Source of the DNA: Maribacter polysaccharolyticus | GTDB taxonomy: Bacteria; Bacteroidota; Bacteroidia; Flavobacteriales; Flavobacteriaceae | Assembly (NCBI RefSeq): GCF_028882255.1 | Contig: NZ_JARBUY010000003.1 | Span: forward strand, 705,018-769,017 | Direction of reading: 5' to 3' | Length of the DNA: 64,000 bases | Made by a program: the position numbers and the translations under genes | The notes under the pieces: generated by a model | Databases searched by the model: none | Told to the model about the DNA's origin: nothing | What the model saw: the letters and a program-made list of their open reading frames with translations, nothing else | Part shown: in pieces, positions 24,658 through 33,463 of the stretch | Numbering within the stretch: the first letter of the stretch is position 1 | Layout of the letters: each line of letters starts with the position of its first letter

Positions 24658-25959
24658 ATGGATAATACGCATTATATGGATCTTCGAAAAATTGGAATGG
24701 TGATGTTATCGTTTACATTGATAACCTCTTGTAATAATAAAAAGAAAAGCGAAATGAAAAAAGAAACCAGTACAACGGATGCACTACATGTCCCCCAAGC
24801 GAATGGAAAAAGGGCCACCTATGCCGATGAAGTTGCTTTTATGGAAGAATATATCGACCTGATCCAACTTACCGACGCATCAAACCAGTCAAAAGTGGCT
24901 ATTTCGGCAGCCTTGCAAGGTCGAGTAATGACCAGCAGTGCTTTTGGAACTGAAGGTAGAAGTTATGGATGGATCAATCGTGAGTTGTTCAAATCAAAAG
25001 ATACCTTGGAACATATCAATGTTTTTGGAGGTGAAGAACGATTCTGGTTAGGACCGGAAGGTGGGCAATATTCCATCTTTTTTAAAAAGGGTGCGGAATT
25101 TACCTTAGACGATTGGTACACGCCAAAACTGATAGATTTGGAACCTTTTGATGTAAAGGATGTTTCGTCAACTTCGGCTACATTTACAAAAAAGGCATCA
25201 TTGAAAAATTACGCTGGTTTTCAGTTTGATATGGAGATTGAAAGAGAAGTTGCGATTCTTTCTAAAGAAGCCATTCAAAAAGAACTGGGTTTACAAACGC
25301 TTTCAGGGAATTTAAAAACGGTAGCTTACCAAACGACCAATACACTGACCAACATTGGGCAATCGGATTGGAAAAAAGAAACAGGGTTACTGTCAATTTG
25401 GATGTTGGGTATGTTCAATCATTCGCCCCATACCACTATTTTAATTCCCTATGTCCAAGGGGATACAACCGAGTTGGGACAAGTGGTCAATGATACGTAT
25501 TTCGGGAAAGTGCCTTCGGATCGATTGGTCGTGAAAGAGAACGCTATTTTCTTTAAAGGTGATGGGGAATACCGGAGTAAAATTGGGTTGACTCCTTTGC
25601 GCGCAAAAGATATTGCGGGGTCTTACGATTCAGCAAGTGGAATTTTAACCATCGTCAAATACAACAAACCTGAAAATGTAACGGATTACGTAAACTCTAT
25701 GTGGGAAATTCAAGAGGAACCTTTTAGTGGTGATGTCATTAATGCTTATAATGATGGTGCTCCAGAGCCTGGAGCTAAGCCGTTAGGACCTTTTTATGAG
25801 TTGGAAACTTCTTCTCCCGCATTGGCATTGAAATCCGGGGAAAGTGGCACACATATTCAAACCACTTATCATATAGAAGGTGATGAGGCTAGTTTAAATC
25901 CTATTGTTCAAGAACTGTTTGGAGTTACAATCAATGAAATAAAAACTGCTTTTAAATAA
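24658..25959 (+). CDS. DUF6786-like lipoprotein, probable sugar-binding/mutarotase-like fold
   Basis: A 433-residue protein with a lipobox in 'LSFTLITSCNNKKK'; starts at 24658 or 24676 are both possible, the latter giving a more typical signal length. I recognise it only as a Bacteroidota family (DUF6786, assignment from memory). The readable features are a Thr/Ser-rich linker after the lipid cysteine, then a beta-rich domain with 'VAISAALQGRVMTSSA', 'GGEERFWLGPEGGQYSIFF' and 'HSPHTTILIPY', which recalls aldose-epimerase/galactose-mutarotase-like beta-sandwiches. No catalytic residues can be named. It ends 12 bases before the GH29 gene. A decayed copy of its 3' end, joined to a GH29 tail, lies at 29108-29342, showing that the two families have travelled together at this locus. 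Confidence 0.7.
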   Translation: MDNTHYMDLRKIGMVMLSFTLITSCNNKKKSEMKKETSTTDALHVPQANGKRATYADEVAFMEEYIDLIQLTDASNQSKVAISAALQGRVMTSSAFGTEGRSYGWINRELFKSKDTLEHINVFGGEERFWLGPEGGQYSIFFKKGAEFTLDDWYTPKLIDLEPFDVKDVSSTSATFTKKASLKNYAGFQFDMEIEREVAILSKEAIQKELGLQTLSGNLKTVAYQTTNTLTNIGQSDWKKETGLLSIWMLGMFNHSPHTTILIPYVQGDTTELGQVVNDTYFGKVPSDRLVVKENAIFFKGDGEYRSKIGLTPLRAKDIAGSYDSASGILTIVKYNKPENVTDYVNSMWEIQEEPFSGDVINAYNDGAPEPGAKPLGPFYELETSSPALALKSGESGTHIQTTYHIEGDEASLNPIVQELFGVTINEIKTAFK

Positions 25960-25971
25960 ATTAAATTATAA

Positions 25972-27570
25972 ATGAATATGAACTTAAAAAATTCAATTAT
26001 AATTGCATCAACCGTTTTGACGTTGCTGTCTTGTAATTCACAATCAAAGAAAAAAGAGATAGCACAATTGCCGTATGATGGTAGCTGGGAATCCCTTCAA
26101 AAAATGCCGGTACCCGATTGGTTTAACGATGGTAAAGTAGGCATCTTTATCCATTGGGGGCCTTACAGCGTTATTGGTCACCGTAAAGGGGGTAAAGGAT
26201 ATGCAGAACACGTTCCAAAAATGATATATAAAGATTCCACTTATTATTATCCTTTTTTAAGAGAACGTTGGGGAGCGGCACCACCAGAATTTGGTTATAA
26301 AGACATCATTCCAGAGTTTAAAGCAGAAAAATGGAATCCAGAGGAATGGGCAGAATTGTTTGCTAAAGTAGGGGCAAAGTATGTAGTGTTAACTGCCGAA
26401 CATCACGATGGGTGGGCCAATTGGGATTCTGATTTGACCCCTTGGAATGCTATGGATAAAGGACCTAAACGGGATTTGGTAGGAGATTTAGGAAAAGCGG
26501 TTAGGGAGCAAGGATTAAAATATGCTCCATCGTATCATAGAGAACGTCATACCAGTTTTTTTACCAAGCAACAATATAAAGTACATGCCAAAGCCCAAGA
26601 TGATATTTTAGAAGAAATCAAAAGAAATCCTGAAGCAGAGTCGTTGTACGGACCTTTTGGGTTTAGTAAAGAAGCTGTTGATGAATATGTAGCACGATGG
26701 AAAGAAATTCAAGAGAAATATCAACCTGATTTTTTATGGATTGATGACATTCCTATTTTTACTAGAGATGGAAATAATACACAAGTTGAACCCAAAGTTT
26801 TTAAGCCAGAAATTCAATACTACTACGACCAATGTAGATTGATGATTACGGATTTCATGAACAATGGCGCTCAAAACAATCAAGAGGTTTATGTAAATAA
26901 CAAAGGAAAAAACAGAAACTGGCCAGATGGTATTGGTTGTTTGGAAAAAGACAATTTAATGTTGAAGGTTATTGGTCCTAAATGGCAGAGTTGTACTACG
27001 TTTGGAACATCGTTTGGGTATTTAGAAAATGATAAATACAAATCTGCCAATGCTATTATTGATGAAATGGTAGAAGTAATTTCAAGAAATGGAAACTTTT
27101 TGGTAAACATTGGACCTAAAGCCGATGGCACCATTCCAGAGGAACAAGTAACCTTATTAAATAAAATGGGGAATTGGCTGACTATAAATGGAGCTGCTAT
27201 TTATGGAACGCGTTACTGGAAAGAAAATCATCAGGAAAAGGGACATCTTGCTTTTACTACCAAGGGAACAAAGCTCTTTGCAATTGCATTGGAAAAACCA
27301 GTGAATCCCATAGTTGTTGAAGCTACCAAAGGATGGGCAGAGAATGAGGTGAAGTCGGTTAAACTTCTGGGATCCCAGGCTGATGTTACATGGAGCATGA
27401 CGCCTGAGGGCTTGGAAATAATCCCTCCGGCAGACTTGGGAAAAAGTGACTATGCCTGGTCTTTTGAAATAGCAACAAATAGTGAGCAACATGCTCCCAA
27501 TGCCATACAATCGGATGCGAGTAAGGCGTTGAAAGGGACTAAAAAGGTAGATTTGGATGGAACACATTAA
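25972..27570 (+). CDS. GH29 alpha-L-fucosidase, lipoprotein
   Basis: A 532-residue protein with a lipobox in 'VLTLLSCNSQSK'. GH29 hallmarks occur in order: 'WFNDGKVGIFIHWGPYSV', 'YVVLTAEHHDGWANWDS', and 'PDFLWIDDIPIF' with predicted nucleophile D258. 'GNFLVNIGPKADGTIPEEQ' closes the TIM barrel, and a small C-terminal beta-sandwich ends with 'YAWSFEIATNSEQHAP'. GH29 enzymes retain configuration and release terminal alpha-L-fucose, and some accept L-galactose. The acid/base residue of GH29 is poorly conserved and I do not assign it. The 3' end overlaps the next sulfatase gene by 14 bases, suggesting coupled translation and perhaps sequential action on a sulfated fucoside. Confidence 0.92.
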   Translation: MNMNLKNSIIIASTVLTLLSCNSQSKKKEIAQLPYDGSWESLQKMPVPDWFNDGKVGIFIHWGPYSVIGHRKGGKGYAEHVPKMIYKDSTYYYPFLRERWGAAPPEFGYKDIIPEFKAEKWNPEEWAELFAKVGAKYVVLTAEHHDGWANWDSDLTPWNAMDKGPKRDLVGDLGKAVREQGLKYAPSYHRERHTSFFTKQQYKVHAKAQDDILEEIKRNPEAESLYGPFGFSKEAVDEYVARWKEIQEKYQPDFLWIDDIPIFTRDGNNTQVEPKVFKPEIQYYYDQCRLMITDFMNNGAQNNQEVYVNNKGKNRNWPDGIGCLEKDNLMLKVIGPKWQSCTTFGTSFGYLENDKYKSANAIIDEMVEVISRNGNFLVNIGPKADGTIPEEQVTLLNKMGNWLTINGAAIYGTRYWKENHQEKGHLAFTTKGTKLFAIALEKPVNPIVVEATKGWAENEVKSVKLLGSQADVTWSMTPEGLEIIPPADLGKSDYAWSFEIATNSEQHAPNAIQSDASKALKGTKKVDLDGTH

Positions 27571-29095
27571 AAAAGCTGTACAATTTATTATTTGCTGTTG
27601 GATACTAACCTCTTGTGCTCAAGAAAAAAGCCCTAACATCATTTTTATCATGACAGACGATCAAGGGTATCCGGTTGTGGGGGCACATGGACATCCTTGG
27701 ATTAAAACACCGGAATTGGATAAAATGTACGATCAGTCTGTTCGTTTTGACCGCTTTATGATGGGTTCTACCTGTGCACCAAGTCGAGCCGGTATTATGT
27801 CGGGGGTTCATTCCATTAAAAATGGCGTTACCCATACCATATTCGAAAGAGAGCGACTTAATTTAGAGGCGACAACCCTGTCGGAAGTTTTAAAACCAGC
27901 TGGTTATACATCCGGGTATTTTGGAAAATGGCATTTAGGGGATGAAGATCCATACCAGCCCGAAAACCGTGGATTTGATGAAACGTTTATTCATGGAGCT
28001 GGCGGCATTGGACAAACCTATGCAGGATCTTGTGCGGATGTTCCCGGCAACACCTACTTTGACCCGGTATTTAAGCATAATGGTACGTTTGTAAAGACCA
28101 AAGGCTATTGTACCGATGTTCTGTTCAAGTCAACTCTGGGCTGGATTCAATCGGTAAAGGATTCCAACAAGCCGTTTTTTGCATATTTATCAACCAATGC
28201 CCCACACAGTCCATTTGTGGCGCCGCCTAAATACCAGAAACATTTTGAAGATTTAGGCTTTGATAGCAAAGTAGCTGGTTTTTATGGAATGGTAGAACAT
28301 ATCGACGACTGTATGGGACAGCTGTTTGACCAGTTAGAGGATTGGGGACTGATGGAAAACACCATCATTATCTTCACATCTGACAACGGTATGACTCGAA
28401 TTGGTTGTGGATTAAGAGGTTTTGCAGGACGTCCTCAGGTGCAACTTGGCACCAATGAAGATGGAGAACCGATGATGTCGTACAATGCGGGAATGAAAGG
28501 TTTAAAAGGTACCGTAAACGAAGGTGGTGTTCGTGTTCCATTCTTTGTTCAATGGGACGGGGTGATAAAAGAAGGCCATACAGTAAGTACGGTAGCTAGC
28601 TACTTGGATATTTTGCCAACATTGGCCGATTTTGCGGGGGCTAAGTTGCCAGATACACATGCGTTTGAAGGTAGAAGTTTAAAGCCTTTAGTTTTAGGGA
28701 AAAACCCGAAATGGGAAGATCGTTTTCTTTTTCAGCATGTAACACGTTGGAAGCACGAGGCTAACCCCGATGAGTTTAAGTGGGGGGAATATTCCGTTCG
28801 CAACCAGCGCTTTCGACTTGTTCATGGGGTGCTTTATGATATGGAAAATGATCCGGAGCAGCATACGAATGTAACAGCAGAACATCCTGAACTTGTTGAA
28901 TCGATGAAGAATGCTTACGAAGAATTCTGGGATGAAGCTCGTCCGTTGATGATTAACGAAGAGGTGCCCTTAGCAGAGGAAAAACCTTTTCATGTTGATT
29001 ACAATGCACAAAAGGCAAGTATAGGTATTCCCGATTGGGAAGCGCCCAAGATTACTTGGAAGGAATCATATATAGGAGGGCCAACCGGCCTTTAG
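27557..29095 (+). CDS. S1 family sulfatase (CAPSR), lipoprotein
   Basis: A 512-residue protein starting inside the GH29 gene. The N-terminus 'IICCWILTSCAQEKSP' is a lipoprotein signal, so it shares membrane anchoring with its GH29 neighbour. Core: 'FIMTDDQGYPVVGAHGHPW', C73 in 'STCAPSRAGIMSGVHSI', 'YFGKWHLGDEDPYQPENRG', 'FTSDNGMT' and 'NEGGVRVPFFVQW'. Its 'TDVLFKSTLGWI', 'LSTNAPHSPF' and 'SYNAGMKGLKG' segments parallel those in the sulfatase at 19825, so these two are probably subfamily relatives, but this one lacks the C-terminal extension. The GH29 overlap suggests it desulfates a fucose that the fucosidase then removes, or the reverse order. Confidence 0.92.
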   Translation: MEHIKKAVQFIICCWILTSCAQEKSPNIIFIMTDDQGYPVVGAHGHPWIKTPELDKMYDQSVRFDRFMMGSTCAPSRAGIMSGVHSIKNGVTHTIFERERLNLEATTLSEVLKPAGYTSGYFGKWHLGDEDPYQPENRGFDETFIHGAGGIGQTYAGSCADVPGNTYFDPVFKHNGTFVKTKGYCTDVLFKSTLGWIQSVKDSNKPFFAYLSTNAPHSPFVAPPKYQKHFEDLGFDSKVAGFYGMVEHIDDCMGQLFDQLEDWGLMENTIIIFTSDNGMTRIGCGLRGFAGRPQVQLGTNEDGEPMMSYNAGMKGLKGTVNEGGVRVPFFVQWDGVIKEGHTVSTVASYLDILPTLADFAGAKLPDTHAFEGRSLKPLVLGKNPKWEDRFLFQHVTRWKHEANPDEFKWGEYSVRNQRFRLVHGVLYDMENDPEQHTNVTAEHPELVESMKNAYEEFWDEARPLMINEEVPLAEEKPFHVDYNAQKASIGIPDWEAPKITWKESYIGGPTGL

Positions 29096-29107
29096 AACTA
29101 AGATTTC

Positions 29108-29342
29108 AGTGTTGGAAATGAGAAAAAGGTAAATACGCTTGGTCTATTGAAAATGAAATAGATATCAATGAACATACACCAAGTGCCATACCAATTGATG
29201 ATGGCAAAGCCTTAAAACCCGGGAAAGTGGCACACATGTTCAGATTACTTTTCATATTGAGGGTGATGAGGCTAGTTTACATCCCATTGTTCAAGAACTG
29301 TTCGGAGTTTCAATCAATGAAATCAAAACAGCTTTTGACTAA
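29108..29342 (+). pseudogene. Chimeric gene scar: GH29 tail joined to DUF6786-like tail
   Basis: Two decayed 3' ends are fused here. Around 29122-29211 the frame reads 'KYAWSIENEIDINEHTPSAIP' and then 'DDGKALK', matching the GH29 C-terminus (live copy near 27451-27536: 'YAWSFEIATNSEQHAPNAIQ', then 'KALK'). From 29212 on, the bases match the 3' end of the DUF6786-like gene (live copy near 25824-25959), including 'GDEASL.PIVQELFG' and the stop codon at 29340-29342. One G is missing near 29221-29223 relative to the live copy, so the second part is out of frame. In-frame stop 29119-29121 precedes the first part. The join falls at an 'A-L-K' codon stretch common to both genes. This is the remnant of a second GH29/DUF6786 set removed by deletion. 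Confidence 0.85.
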
Positions 29343-29771
29343 AGTGAATTAAAGGTTTTTTGGGAAGAGACTGGTTCTTTCTTTTGCGGATTGCATGAAC
29401 ATTGGCTTGCCATAAATGAAATAAGGCAAACCAATTCTTGCTTGTATGGTGTTTATTGCGTTTGACTTGAAAGTAGCTATGAATAAAGCCAGAAAACAAT
29501 TTTAGATAATAAGGATAAACCAGTTGGGTGCAATTGGTTTTAATGATAATTTATCGTCAGTACATGATGGATTTTTTAACAGGAATAAACAAAATGTAAT
29601 AAGGATTTCTTTGTCGGGATGAGCTAGTCGAAGCCCTTTTTGATAAGAACGGCATTGATAGGGGGGGGATGGAAAATCACCTGTTTTCACTCAAGATGAC
29701 AGTAAAAGGAAAATACTGGGATAGGCTTTTTCACTAATTACACCCAACGGGTTAACAATAAATATGTCAAA
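29343..29771. other. Non-coding gap inside the PUL
   Basis: About 430 bases with no convincing gene; the short minus-strand frame at 29502-29690 has no recognisable features. There is a run of eight G at 29661-29668. The stretch 'GTCGGGATGAGCTAG' to 'CACTCAAGATGACAG' (about 29611-29701) has the flavour of short dispersed intergenic elements seen in flavobacteria, but no second copy is present in the window, so I do not call a repeat. The gap separates the scar from the GH36 gene and could hold a promoter for the last five PUL genes; I see no perfect TAnnTTTG box near 29772. Confidence 0.5.
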
Positions 29772-31949
29772 ATGATCAAAACAAAAGCTGTTTTTATAGT
29801 CATGATTGCCTGCTTTATAAATAGCAAGCTTTTGGCGCAATTCATTCATATAAAAACCCAGCACAATTCACTGATTTTTCAGGTTGATAGTAATAATAAA
29901 CTCTACCAAACGCACTACGGAAAATACATAAATCAAACTCAGGGTCTTGAAAAAATGACTGTGGTCTTTAACGAAGCTTATCCCAGTTTTGGTAACGGAT
30001 CATCCGATGAGGTGGCAGTAATGGCAACCCATTCCGACGGCACAATGGTTACGGATTTATTTTATGTTTCACACGAACAAAATAAGCAAGCCAACCTACA
30101 ATCGACAGTCATCCATTTGAAAGATGAAAAAAAGGATTTTTATGTGGATTTGCATTTTAATGCCTATACTGCAGAAGACGTCATAGAGCAATGGACGACG
30201 ATTTCACACAAGGAAAATAAAGAAGTGGTCTTATCGCAGTATGCTTCTTCTGCCGTTGGTTTTTTGGCTACCAACTATTATTTGTCCCATTTTCATGGGA
30301 GCCATTCCAAAGAGATGATGTTTGCCGAAGAACACTTGACCAATGGGGTTAAAACTATAGAAACCAAACGGGGTGTTCGAACTACTGAATACGAGAATCC
30401 TTCGTTTATGCTCTCGCTCAATGGCAAAGCAAAAGAAAATGAAGGCGAGGTGATAGCAGGAGCATTGGCATGGACGGGAAATTTTCGATTCGCATTTCAG
30501 TTAGACGACAAAAACCGATGCCAGATAATTTCAGGAATTAACCCTTTCGCATCTGATTATAAGTTGAAAGCCAAAGAAAAATTGGAAACCCCGAGAATGG
30601 TTTTGACGTATAGTGACGAAGGAAAAAACAGGGCGTCGATCAATTTACACCGATGGATTAAAAAATACAATCTAAGAGCGGGAGACCAAGCTCGATCCAT
30701 TGTGCTCAATAGTTGGGAAGGGGCTTATTTTTCTTTTGATGCTACCCGATTGAAGGCGATGATGGATGGAGCAGCTGAGATGGGCGTTGAGACTTTTGTA
30801 TTGGATGATGGCTGGTTTGGCAATAAATACCCTCGAAATAATGCCCGGGCAGGTCTAGGTGACTGGCAGGTAAATCAGAAAAAATTGCCTGCAGGAATTG
30901 AGGATTTGATTCAATATGCCGAGTCGAAAGGGATGCGCTTTGGGATTTGGTTGGAGCCGGAAATGGTAAACCTCCGGAGTGAATTAGCTGAAAAGCATCC
31001 AGAATGGATTATACAGCGTAAAAATGACAGAAGCCCGTTGTTAGAGCGCAATCAGTTGTTGCTGGACTTATCCAATCCCAAGGTTCAGGAATTTGTTTTT
31101 AATGTGATAGATGAACTTTTAACTTCTCACCCACGAATAGCCTATGTAAAATGGGATGCTAATCGTCATGTGCAGAACTTTGGTTCAACTTATTTGGAAC
31201 AAGATAAGCAATCACATCTTTTTGTGGAATATACTAAAGGACTCGAAAAGGTTTTGGAACGACTCGTGAAAAAATACTCAAGAACCATTTTCCAAGCCTG
31301 TGCTTCGGGAGGTGGACGTGTCGATTTGGCTTCGATGCGCTATACACATGAGTTTTGGGCCAGTGATAATACCGACCCTTACGAACGTTTGTTTACCCAA
31401 TGGGGAACCAATCATATTTACCCGCCGATCGCTACGGCGGCGCATGTAACCAAATCGCCTAATCATCAAACAGGACGACAAACTTCGTTAAAATTCCGTT
31501 TTGATGTGGCTATGGGCGGTCGTTTGGGAATGGAATTACGCCCTGAAGATATGGACGAGGAAGAGGTGAAATTTGCCAAAGAGGCGATTGCGACCTACAA
31601 AAGCATTCGTCCGATTATCCAGTTTGGTGATTTGTACCGTTTGTTGTCGCCTTATGATCAGAATGGTTATGCGGCTTTGAATTATGTGTCCGAAAATAAA
31701 AAAGAGGCCATTTTGATAACCTACAGTCTTAACCATCATCGCCGTTACGAACGTTGTTTTGTGAAAATGGCGGGACTAAATCCTGATGCGGTTTATGAGG
31801 TTGAAGAAATCAATAAGGAAAGCAATAAGTCGGTTATTGGTTTTGACAAACAATTGGTGTCAGGAGAAATATTGATGGATCGAGGAATATGGGTCGATTT
31901 AAGAAAACCGCTCCAAAGTGCCGTTTTTCAATTGACGGAAACAAATTAA
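29772..31949 (+). CDS. GH36 alpha-galactosidase, secreted
   Basis: A 725-residue protein with a signal peptide ending near 'SKLLAQF'. It is a full-length classical GH36 enzyme: an N-terminal beta-supersandwich (to about residue 300), then the TIM barrel with 'LDDGWFGNKYPRNNA', 'GIWLEPEMVN', 'YVKWDANRH' giving nucleophile D462, 'CASGGGRVDLASM' and 'FWASDNTDPYERL' giving acid/base D532, and a C-terminal beta-domain. Classical members retain configuration and release terminal alpha-D-galactose. This is a different branch from the raffinose-synthase-type protein at 5197. Its presence argues that the target polymer contains alpha-galactose besides fucose. The next sulfatase starts 17 bases downstream. 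Confidence 0.93.
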   Translation: MIKTKAVFIVMIACFINSKLLAQFIHIKTQHNSLIFQVDSNNKLYQTHYGKYINQTQGLEKMTVVFNEAYPSFGNGSSDEVAVMATHSDGTMVTDLFYVSHEQNKQANLQSTVIHLKDEKKDFYVDLHFNAYTAEDVIEQWTTISHKENKEVVLSQYASSAVGFLATNYYLSHFHGSHSKEMMFAEEHLTNGVKTIETKRGVRTTEYENPSFMLSLNGKAKENEGEVIAGALAWTGNFRFAFQLDDKNRCQIISGINPFASDYKLKAKEKLETPRMVLTYSDEGKNRASINLHRWIKKYNLRAGDQARSIVLNSWEGAYFSFDATRLKAMMDGAAEMGVETFVLDDGWFGNKYPRNNARAGLGDWQVNQKKLPAGIEDLIQYAESKGMRFGIWLEPEMVNLRSELAEKHPEWIIQRKNDRSPLLERNQLLLDLSNPKVQEFVFNVIDELLTSHPRIAYVKWDANRHVQNFGSTYLEQDKQSHLFVEYTKGLEKVLERLVKKYSRTIFQACASGGGRVDLASMRYTHEFWASDNTDPYERLFTQWGTNHIYPPIATAAHVTKSPNHQTGRQTSLKFRFDVAMGGRLGMELRPEDMDEEEVKFAKEAIATYKSIRPIIQFGDLYRLLSPYDQNGYAALNYVSENKKEAILITYSLNHHRRYERCFVKMAGLNPDAVYEVEEINKESNKSVIGFDKQLVSGEILMDRGIWVDLRKPLQSAVFQLTETN

Positions 31950-31966
31950 AAATATAAAATAAACGA

Positions 31967-33463
31967 ATGAGAAATCGGATTAAGATACTCTTGTATAGTG
32001 TTTTTTGTTTAGGAGTCAGTGTTTCTTTTTCCCAACAAAAAAAGCCGAATATTATTTTCATCATGGCAGATGACCTAGGTTGGCAAGATGTGGGCTTTAT
32101 GGGGAGCCAGTGGTTTGAGACGCCTAATTTAGATGCTTTGGCCCAAGAAAGTTTGGTGTTTACGGATGCCTATATGTACCCCACCTGTTCGCCTTCCAGA
32201 ACCGCTTTGCTAACAGGTAAGCAGTCGTTTAGAACGGGGGTTTACAACGTACCGGTTTTGGAAAAAGGAGATAGTGAACATAATATTTTTTCACGTTGGA
32301 CGGTGGGATTGGAGCACACCATGTATGCCCAACCTCTTAAAGAAGCCGGGTATAAATCCATTCATATAGGAAAGTGGCATGTCGTGGGGCCAAATCCTAA
32401 AGAAGAAATAAGCTATCCGTTTAAAAAGCCTTTAAAACAACCTGCCAACGGAAATTTGGATTGGTTAAAAGAACACAAATCAGCCGAAATCCAGCAATAT
32501 TATCCAACGGGAAAAGGGTTTGATGAAAATGTGGGAGGCACTTGGTGGGGCGATCCTGCCCGTGGGTATACGAAAGGATATCAGTCTGAAAGCGGTGGCT
32601 ATAAGGCCCCATTCAAGAATCCTTTCATCAAAGATAAAGAAGACGATGAATGGTTAACGGACAGACTTACCGATCAGGCAATCGATTTTATCAATAGAAA
32701 CAAGAAGGGACCCTTTTTTGTCAACCTTCATTTTTATGCACCGCATAGACCAACAGTGCCAAGGAGTAAGGGGCAATATCAAAGGTTTTTGAACAAAGCT
32801 CCGGATTCCATTACAGGACAAGGGGAAAAACGATTGGAAGAAATAGCCGGTTATGCGACCATGATCGCTTCCATTGATGAAAATGTAAAACGCATTTTCG
32901 ATTATTTGGACGAACAAGGTTTACGGGAAAATACCCTTGTGGTTTTCACATCGGACAATGGATTTAATGGGTTGCAAAGTAACACGAATACCTTACGCGG
33001 GGCTAAGGGAACTGTTTATGAAGGCGGAATACGGGTACCTGCCTTTGTGAATTGGAAAGGAAAAGTTGATGCCGGGATTTCCGGGATACCCATTTGTGGC
33101 ATGGATTATTTTCCTACTTTCCTGGATTTGGCACAAGTGAAAAATTACAAAGATGTCTTGGATGGAACCTCTATAGTCCCTGTATTGAAAAATGAATCAT
33201 TTAAAGAACGTCCACTTTTTTGGCATTTGGCGAGCACGTATAAAAATCCACCCTGTTCCATTATCAGAAAAGGTGACTGGAAGTTAATTCAGTTTTTGAA
33301 TGATGGAAAAGTGGAATTATACCATTTAAAGGAAGATTTGAACGAAAGCCATAACTTAGCGGAAGTAGCGCAGGAACTGGTCCAAGAATTAGTGGCTGAA
33401 CTTACTTTATGGCGAAAGGAAAACAACGTGCCGCTTCCACCTGTTTCAATATTGGGTCATTAA
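31967..33463 (+). CDS. S1 family sulfatase (CSPSR), secreted
   Basis: A 498-residue protein with a signal peptide ending near 'VSFSQQ'. Core: 'FIMADDLGWQDVGFMG', C74 in 'PTCSPSRTALLTGKQSFRTG', 'IGKWHVVGPNP', 'FTSDNGFNG' and 'VYEGGIRVPAFVNW'. A long insertion with 'EEISYPFKKPLKQPANG' and 'GFDENVGGTWWGDPARGY' before the second half is typical of the subgroup that also has 'HFYAPHRPTVPR'. C-terminal 'IIRKGDWKLIQFLNDGKVELY' is intact. It is less like the other sulfatases here than they are like one another, so it probably targets a different sulfate position or sugar. It follows GH36 and precedes the GH141-like gene. Confidence 0.92.
   Translation: MRNRIKILLYSVFCLGVSVSFSQQKKPNIIFIMADDLGWQDVGFMGSQWFETPNLDALAQESLVFTDAYMYPTCSPSRTALLTGKQSFRTGVYNVPVLEKGDSEHNIFSRWTVGLEHTMYAQPLKEAGYKSIHIGKWHVVGPNPKEEISYPFKKPLKQPANGNLDWLKEHKSAEIQQYYPTGKGFDENVGGTWWGDPARGYTKGYQSESGGYKAPFKNPFIKDKEDDEWLTDRLTDQAIDFINRNKKGPFFVNLHFYAPHRPTVPRSKGQYQRFLNKAPDSITGQGEKRLEEIAGYATMIASIDENVKRIFDYLDEQGLRENTLVVFTSDNGFNGLQSNTNTLRGAKGTVYEGGIRVPAFVNWKGKVDAGISGIPICGMDYFPTFLDLAQVKNYKDVLDGTSIVPVLKNESFKERPLFWHLASTYKNPPCSIIRKGDWKLIQFLNDGKVELYHLKEDLNESHNLAEVAQELVQELVAELTLWRKENNVPLPPVSILGH

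Follow-up and report, generated by a model that had tools for sequence, protein, structure and literature searches.

A remnant joining the 3' tails of a GH29 and a DUF6786 gene in a fucoidan-type PUL of Maribacter polysaccharolyticus

Between a sulfatase gene and a GH36 gene in a PUL of Maribacter polysaccharolyticus, the 3' tail of a GH29 gene is joined directly to the 3' tail of a DUF6786 gene. This chimera, proposed in a first-pass annotation, is real, each of its halves resembling a live gene end well above chance, and it documents gene turnover within the PUL. Compared with related loci, the remnant is most simply read as two scars differing in age: a GH29 tail that probably arose as a separate, older scar common to another genus, and a DUF6786 tail that is probably a copy of the locus's own DUF6786 gene, attached later than the GH29 half. 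It is an ordinary kind of genomic scar and not a new type of element, with an unusually clear two-step history, and would allow two successive steps of gene insertion into a fucoidan-type PUL to be read, the first of which is preserved in the other genus.

The remnant and its locus

The window, i.e., the whole 64,000-nucleotide stretch of DNA that was analyzed, carries at 342-39004 a PUL that its Pfam content marks as fucoidan-type, with many sulfatases alongside GH29, GH95 and GH141-type genes. Its glycosidases comprise two GH95, two GH116-like, GH29, GH36 and a GH141-like beta-helix gene, and a raffinose-synthase-like gene is also encoded. The live GH29 gene overlaps with its 3' end the start of the sulfatase gene sulf27557 (ORF coordinates), orthologs of which are found in G237 (89%), G146 (87%) and the locus L006 (87%). 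Between sulf27557 and the GH36 gene lies a gap of 676 bases with no ORF of at least 100 aa between 29095 and 29772, and it is here that the remnant is located (Table 1). In the genome as a whole there is one GH29 gene of this kind, and DUF6786 is represented only by the live copy and the relic tail.

Table 1. Coordinates of the remnant and of the neighboring features in the window
Feature	Position	Strand	Evidence and remarks
Live DUF6786 gene (PF20583)	24658..25959	+	Pfam E 1.8e-165; putative parent of relic 2
Live GH29 gene (PF01120)	25972..27570	+	Pfam E 4e-90; ORF coordinates
Sulfatase gene sulf27557	27557..29095	+	Pfam PF00884 E 1e-54; GH29 tail on either side
3' flank of sulf27557	29096..29118	+	Collinear with G237 (blastn, pair alignment)
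Relic 1, GH29 3' tail	29119..29213 (end approximate)	+	About 32 codons; no start, no surrounding gene
Join of both tails	29205..29219	+	Relic GCCTTAAAA; live genes share GGCrTTGAAA; sequence comparison
Relic 2, DUF6786 3' tail	29214..29351	+	Stop at 29340-29342, plus 9 bp of 3' flank
Spacer before GH36	29352..29771	.	420 bp; no recognizable relatives
GH36 gene	29772..31949	+	Pfam PF02065; missing at this place in all relatives examined
Sulfatase gene sulf31967	31967..33463	+	Next gene in the shared order; gene order and N-termini

Over 73 bp, positions 29119-29191 are 71% identical to the terminal part of the live GH29 gene at 27437-27508 (within-window E 0.001), and the local score of 40 was reached by 0/2000 dinucleotide shuffles, whose maximum was 30. 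Free of stops, this half translates as KYAWSIENEIDINEHTPSAIPIDDGKALK, which also resembles the GH29 C-termini in L005 and L006 (55% over 29 aa, E 1e-6). The second half is the clearer match: all 138 bp of relic 2 align ungapped with 25831-25968 at 86.2% (E 1e-42, within-window comparison), the match extends 9 bp beyond the stop codon, and a protein search of the own genome recovers it at 73% over 49 residues. Read-through across the join contains two TGA. Similar to parts of intact homologs and lacking a complete family reading frame, 29119-29351 is, judged by these comparisons, a gene remnant. Its start had been set at 29108, about 10 bp too far to the left, given that 29096-29118 belong to the sulfatase 3' flank; the relic itself stands.

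The sequence at the join is AAAGCCTTAAAACCCGGGAAAG in the relic, AAGGCGTTGAAAGGG in the live GH29 gene and TTGGCATTGAAATCCGGGG in the live DUF6786 gene. The two live genes agree in 9/10 bp (GGCrTTGAAA), in line with the short homology reported earlier at an A-L-K codon stretch, and the breakpoint, as far as the alignment of the three sequences places it, falls somewhere inside this stretch. The earlier reading also had one G missing relative to the live copy, which holds only if the DUF6786 homology begins to the left of the G run; with a breakpoint within the shared stretch or to its right, the relic may have lost no base at all, so that this detail is insecure. As to polarity, a downstream sequence (the GH29 tail) is joined onto an upstream sequence (the DUF6786 tail) with a short shared stretch at the joint, and the A-L-K join may represent a novel joint created by duplication or unequal exchange instead of a deletion scar.

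A GH29 tail at the same place in another genus

G237, a genome from another genus of the same family, has at locus L122 the order sulf23026 - GH29 - sulf27557 - GH29 tail - sulf31967. Its GH29 tail comprises 42 codons directly behind the orthologous sulfatase (L122 11975-12100, 69-71%) and spans GH29 residues ~490 to the end; sulf31967 starts in the last codons of this copied tail, just as sulf27557 does in those of the intact GH29 gene. An unbroken blastn alignment at 83% connects window 25940-29152 with L122 8790-12002, and the collinear region covers GH29, sulf27557, its stop, the 23-bp spacer and the first part of the relic. For the sulfatase flank together with the relic start, the comparison between window and G237 gives a score of 35, where shuffles reached at most 29. 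The two relics also begin alike with GAGAAAA(A)GGTAAATA, where the intact GH29 genes differ. Over their GH29 part the window and G237 relics are only 58% identical, so the two GH29 tails may have originated in independent insertions at one spot. The tail at the same spot and the collinearity argue that the GH29 half is probably the older scar. G237 has no DUF6786 ortholog at the locus, its sole paralog (48%) lying ~85 kb off; since no DUF6786 adjoins the tail there, the GH29 half of the remnant needs no separate reversed gene set.

A third form of the same place is seen in L006, where sulf31967 is preceded by the final 17 bases of GH29 and by a sulf27557-like signal peptide. In both G237 and L006, the sulf31967 start codon lies within the copied GH29 tail and the signal peptide is sulf27557-like (76% over 229 bp and 78% over 118 bp). 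We read L006, from this resemblance, as a further-decayed form of a G237-like state; beyond the last 27 bp, a search of the L006 spacer for GH29 tail remains gave only a chance-level score (594/2000 shuffles).

Two other features of the G237 comparison are recorded. Window 27427-27680 and L122 10281-10530, which hold the end of the intact GH29 gene and the sulfatase start, are 95% identical, including 95/95 identical bp in the aligned GH29 tail, in a block that is ~83% identical overall in DNA; recent conversion or strong constraint are possible causes. At L122 8754-8827, between sulf23026 and GH29, a stop-terminated open stretch of 23 codons, NFDAWFKGGISKFKNEFEAELNR, occupies the place of the window's DUF6786 gene and resembles another orphan gene tail; a search for its parent gene found none.

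The DUF6786 tail is closest to the live gene of the same locus

The DUF6786 relic shares 87% identity with the live copy, whereas its identity to the relatives' sequences does not exceed 78%, and in a tree of DUF6786 3' ends it is sister to the window's live copy with a support of 99/99. The live branch has a length of 0 and the relic branch one of 0.17 (approximate values, the alignment being short), i.e., all change lies on the relic side and the relic changes faster than the working copy. This sister relation and the unequal branches suggest that the DUF6786 tail was copied inside this lineage and decayed afterwards. It follows that an extra copy of at least the 3' end of that gene existed, likely as a tandem or recombined second copy of DUF6786. 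In this respect the extra gene set proposed by the first-pass annotation survives in part: an additional copy of the DUF6786 3' end is retained, the GH29'-X-DUF6786' order is not. The relic changes fall on 6 first, 2 second and 9 third codon positions, a spread compatible with constant neutral decay or with a phase of use. Eleven other genomes of the genus were searched and gave no match to the relic or to the live DUF6786 tail.

Gene order in relatives

A DUF6786 protein scan of species genomes yielded 47 loci, the gene order of which was compared by tblastn, and a GH29 search of 397 family genomes added loci from G407, G237, G146, G261 and G228. Among close relatives, sulf23026 - DUF6786 - sulf31967 is the order found most often (L004, L007, L009, L010 and L046). 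GH29 follows DUF6786 in L005, L006, L012 and L014, of which L006 additionally carries sulf27557; searches of plasmids and of the genera to which G237 and G146 belong turned up no more sulf27557 carriers. An intact GH29'-X-DUF6786' segment, which the first-pass annotation proposed to look for at this point in related genomes, was found neither in the own genome nor in 40 close relatives, the 397 family genomes or the 47 DUF6786 loci. L019 alone has a GH29 gene upstream of DUF6786, and that GH29 is distant (28%). The GH36 gene is absent from this place in every relative examined. A donor with DUF6786 beside GH36 was considered and rejected, the sole close GH36 (75%, G232) having other neighbors. 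For the 420-bp spacer no relatives were detected in the own genome, the relatives' loci, Pfam or Rfam, and candidate further relics within it amounted to short weak matches on par with a reversed control. About eight consecutive G occur in the spacer at 29660-29670, ~100 bp ahead of the GH36 start, and the length of this run is possibly unstable.

A separate observation concerns G146, where a second, decayed GH29 gene lies at ~2301668-2303079 on the minus strand of the contig (L120, G146:C1:2297000-2316500). It has 61% identity with several stops and frame breaks, shares its PUL with an intact GH29 and sulf27557, and lies 7.8 kb downstream of the intact GH29.

A two-layer history and its alternatives

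With moderate confidence, we favor a two-layer recombination scar that is itself functionless: an older GH29 tail, a later join to DUF6786, and then loss of the remaining second copy and acquisition of GH36. In the first layer, which is well supported by the comparison with G237, though not proven to be one single event, an ancestor common with G237 would have gained the sulfatase behind GH29 along with a second GH29 3' tail, so that the order became GH29 - sulfatase - GH29 tail - next sulfatase. Such a product would be expected after a tandem duplication, or if the GH29 tail had been the site of a single-crossover (Campbell-type) insertion, and does not need DUF6786, as the DUF6786-free locus of G237 indicates. 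The second layer we infer for the window's lineage only: the decaying GH29 tail would have joined a copy of the lineage's own DUF6786 3' end at the ~9 bp shared stretch. Most simply, the 3.38-kb block 25831-29213 would have been duplicated in tandem through short homology, as supported by the downstream-to-upstream join that such a duplication produces; unequal exchange with a sister chromosome could have the same outcome. Afterwards the remainder of the second copy would have been lost, the GH36 gene and the 420 bp of spacer DNA gained, and both tails would have decayed. No trace was found after 29351 of the second GH29 5' part expected from a tandem duplication, nor was an intermediate genome for this layer; as similarity stops 9 bp past the DUF6786 stop, the duplication is deduced and is not a classification of the scar.

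The sister relation of the relic to its own live DUF6786 is the reason why tandem duplication is weighted above exchange with a near relative, which we regard as a possible but considerably less probable origin. Here, two versions of the same PUL would have been joined once at the short shared stretch, one a G237-like version ending in sulfatase - GH29 tail, the other a near relative's version with DUF6786 directly before sulf31967 or before GH36 - sulf31967, so that the scar would be the tail of the second version's DUF6786. A single event would suffice, no lost second GH29 copy would be required, and close relatives most often have DUF6786 immediately before sulf31967. However, the relic is not sister to the copies that have this order, so the partner must be a very near relative outside the collections, and GH36 is missing there in all genomes with the DUF6786 - sulf31967 order.

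Less probable again is the history first suggested for the remnant, i.e., an intact GH29' upstream of a DUF6786' in an additional set, collapsed by one short-homology deletion at A-L-K. The 9/10-bp shared stretch is as expected for such a collapse, and G146 shows that one PUL can harbor a decayed GH29 besides the live gene; however, that pseudogene sits elsewhere in the PUL, the required order of these subfamilies occurs in 0/397 family genomes and 0/47 DUF6786 loci, and in G237 the GH29 tail is present at this place without any DUF6786. A lost GH29'-DUF6786' set is unneeded as an explanation, and the earlier reading is partly contradicted by G237.

It is highly unlikely that the stretch has been kept for a function as a leader, promoter or small RNA ahead of GH36. 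The start codons of the next gene inside the copied GH29 tails of G237 and L006 indicate that tails can act as leaders, but in the window the tails and GH36 are 420 bp apart, no Rfam match or terminator-like site is present, and the relic is the fast-changing copy. A promoter scan, which does not cover Bacteroidota promoters, gave one weak match against 3.1 expected. An assembly artefact is barely credible, because misassembly would yield near-identical repeats, whereas the relic parts are ~14% and ~30% different from every intact copy, and the 775-kb contig runs on at both sides.

Like the truncated pseudogenes that remain in bacterial operons, the remnant is homologous to intact gene ends, has no start and is decaying; what sets it apart is the fusion, within a short shared stretch, of two different gene tails that are probably not equally old. 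With the novel joints of short-homology tandem duplication or single-crossover insertion it shares the downstream-to-upstream join and the short shared stretch, except that its second copy is gone beyond 29351, which makes the duplication a putative one. Mosaic operons, in which genes are displaced in situ, vary in gene content around a fixed order among related operons. The PUL likewise changes its content around a fixed gene order, but here the scars of change are still readable, and they are mostly 3' ends. In the literature collection that was searched, nothing on DUF6786 or on gene remnants in PULs was found.

Gene remnants in related loci are mostly 3' tails

When 172 same-strand gaps from 79 loci were scanned for gene fragments, nine isolated same-strand fragments emerged, of which 6/9 are C-terminal, a small count tallied post hoc, with 2/9 internal and at most one N-terminal. 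Randomly placed fragments would be mostly internal. The C-terminal ones occur in the window, G237, L004 (an 85-aa tail of an 18270-type gene ahead of sulf21624), L017 (a 49-aa tail of a 37955-type gene), L046 (a second, degenerate sulf23026-like tail ahead of DUF6786; weak match, E 3e-5) and L123 (a sulf23026 tail ahead of DUF6786; weak match, E 2e-4). The internal pieces lie at L122 1864-2156 and L123 8543-8809. Most N-terminal matches run on into the next gene and represent start-calling errors, L043 being ambiguous.

Tentatively, and with more doubt than confidence, we propose that 3' gene tails are regular scars of gene replacement in dense PUL operons, since a gene's start signal is located in the tail of the gene ahead of it. 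Examples of such starts are GH29/sulf27557 in the window and the copied tail/sulf31967 in G237 and L006, and this arrangement is a likely reason for the C-terminal excess. The remnant thereby suggests a testable rule, namely that a 3' tail survives because the following gene starts within it; were this to hold generally, earlier gene orders of an operon could be reconstructed from such tails.

The signal peptide of sulf31967 (window 31967-32060; orthologs in L004-L016 and L120-L128) varies with the upstream gene, and beyond it the orthologs are ~80% identical. It reads MILKRL..KITxLLC where DUF6786 lies upstream (L004, L046), M..ACAQEKKPN behind another gene of 476-478 aa (L005, L016, L121) and MxxIKK..SC behind the GH29 tail (G237, L006). 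Such upstream-dependent signal peptides are consistent with a next-gene start inside the tail of the preceding gene. In the window, where sulf31967 stands behind GH36, it carries yet another signal peptide.
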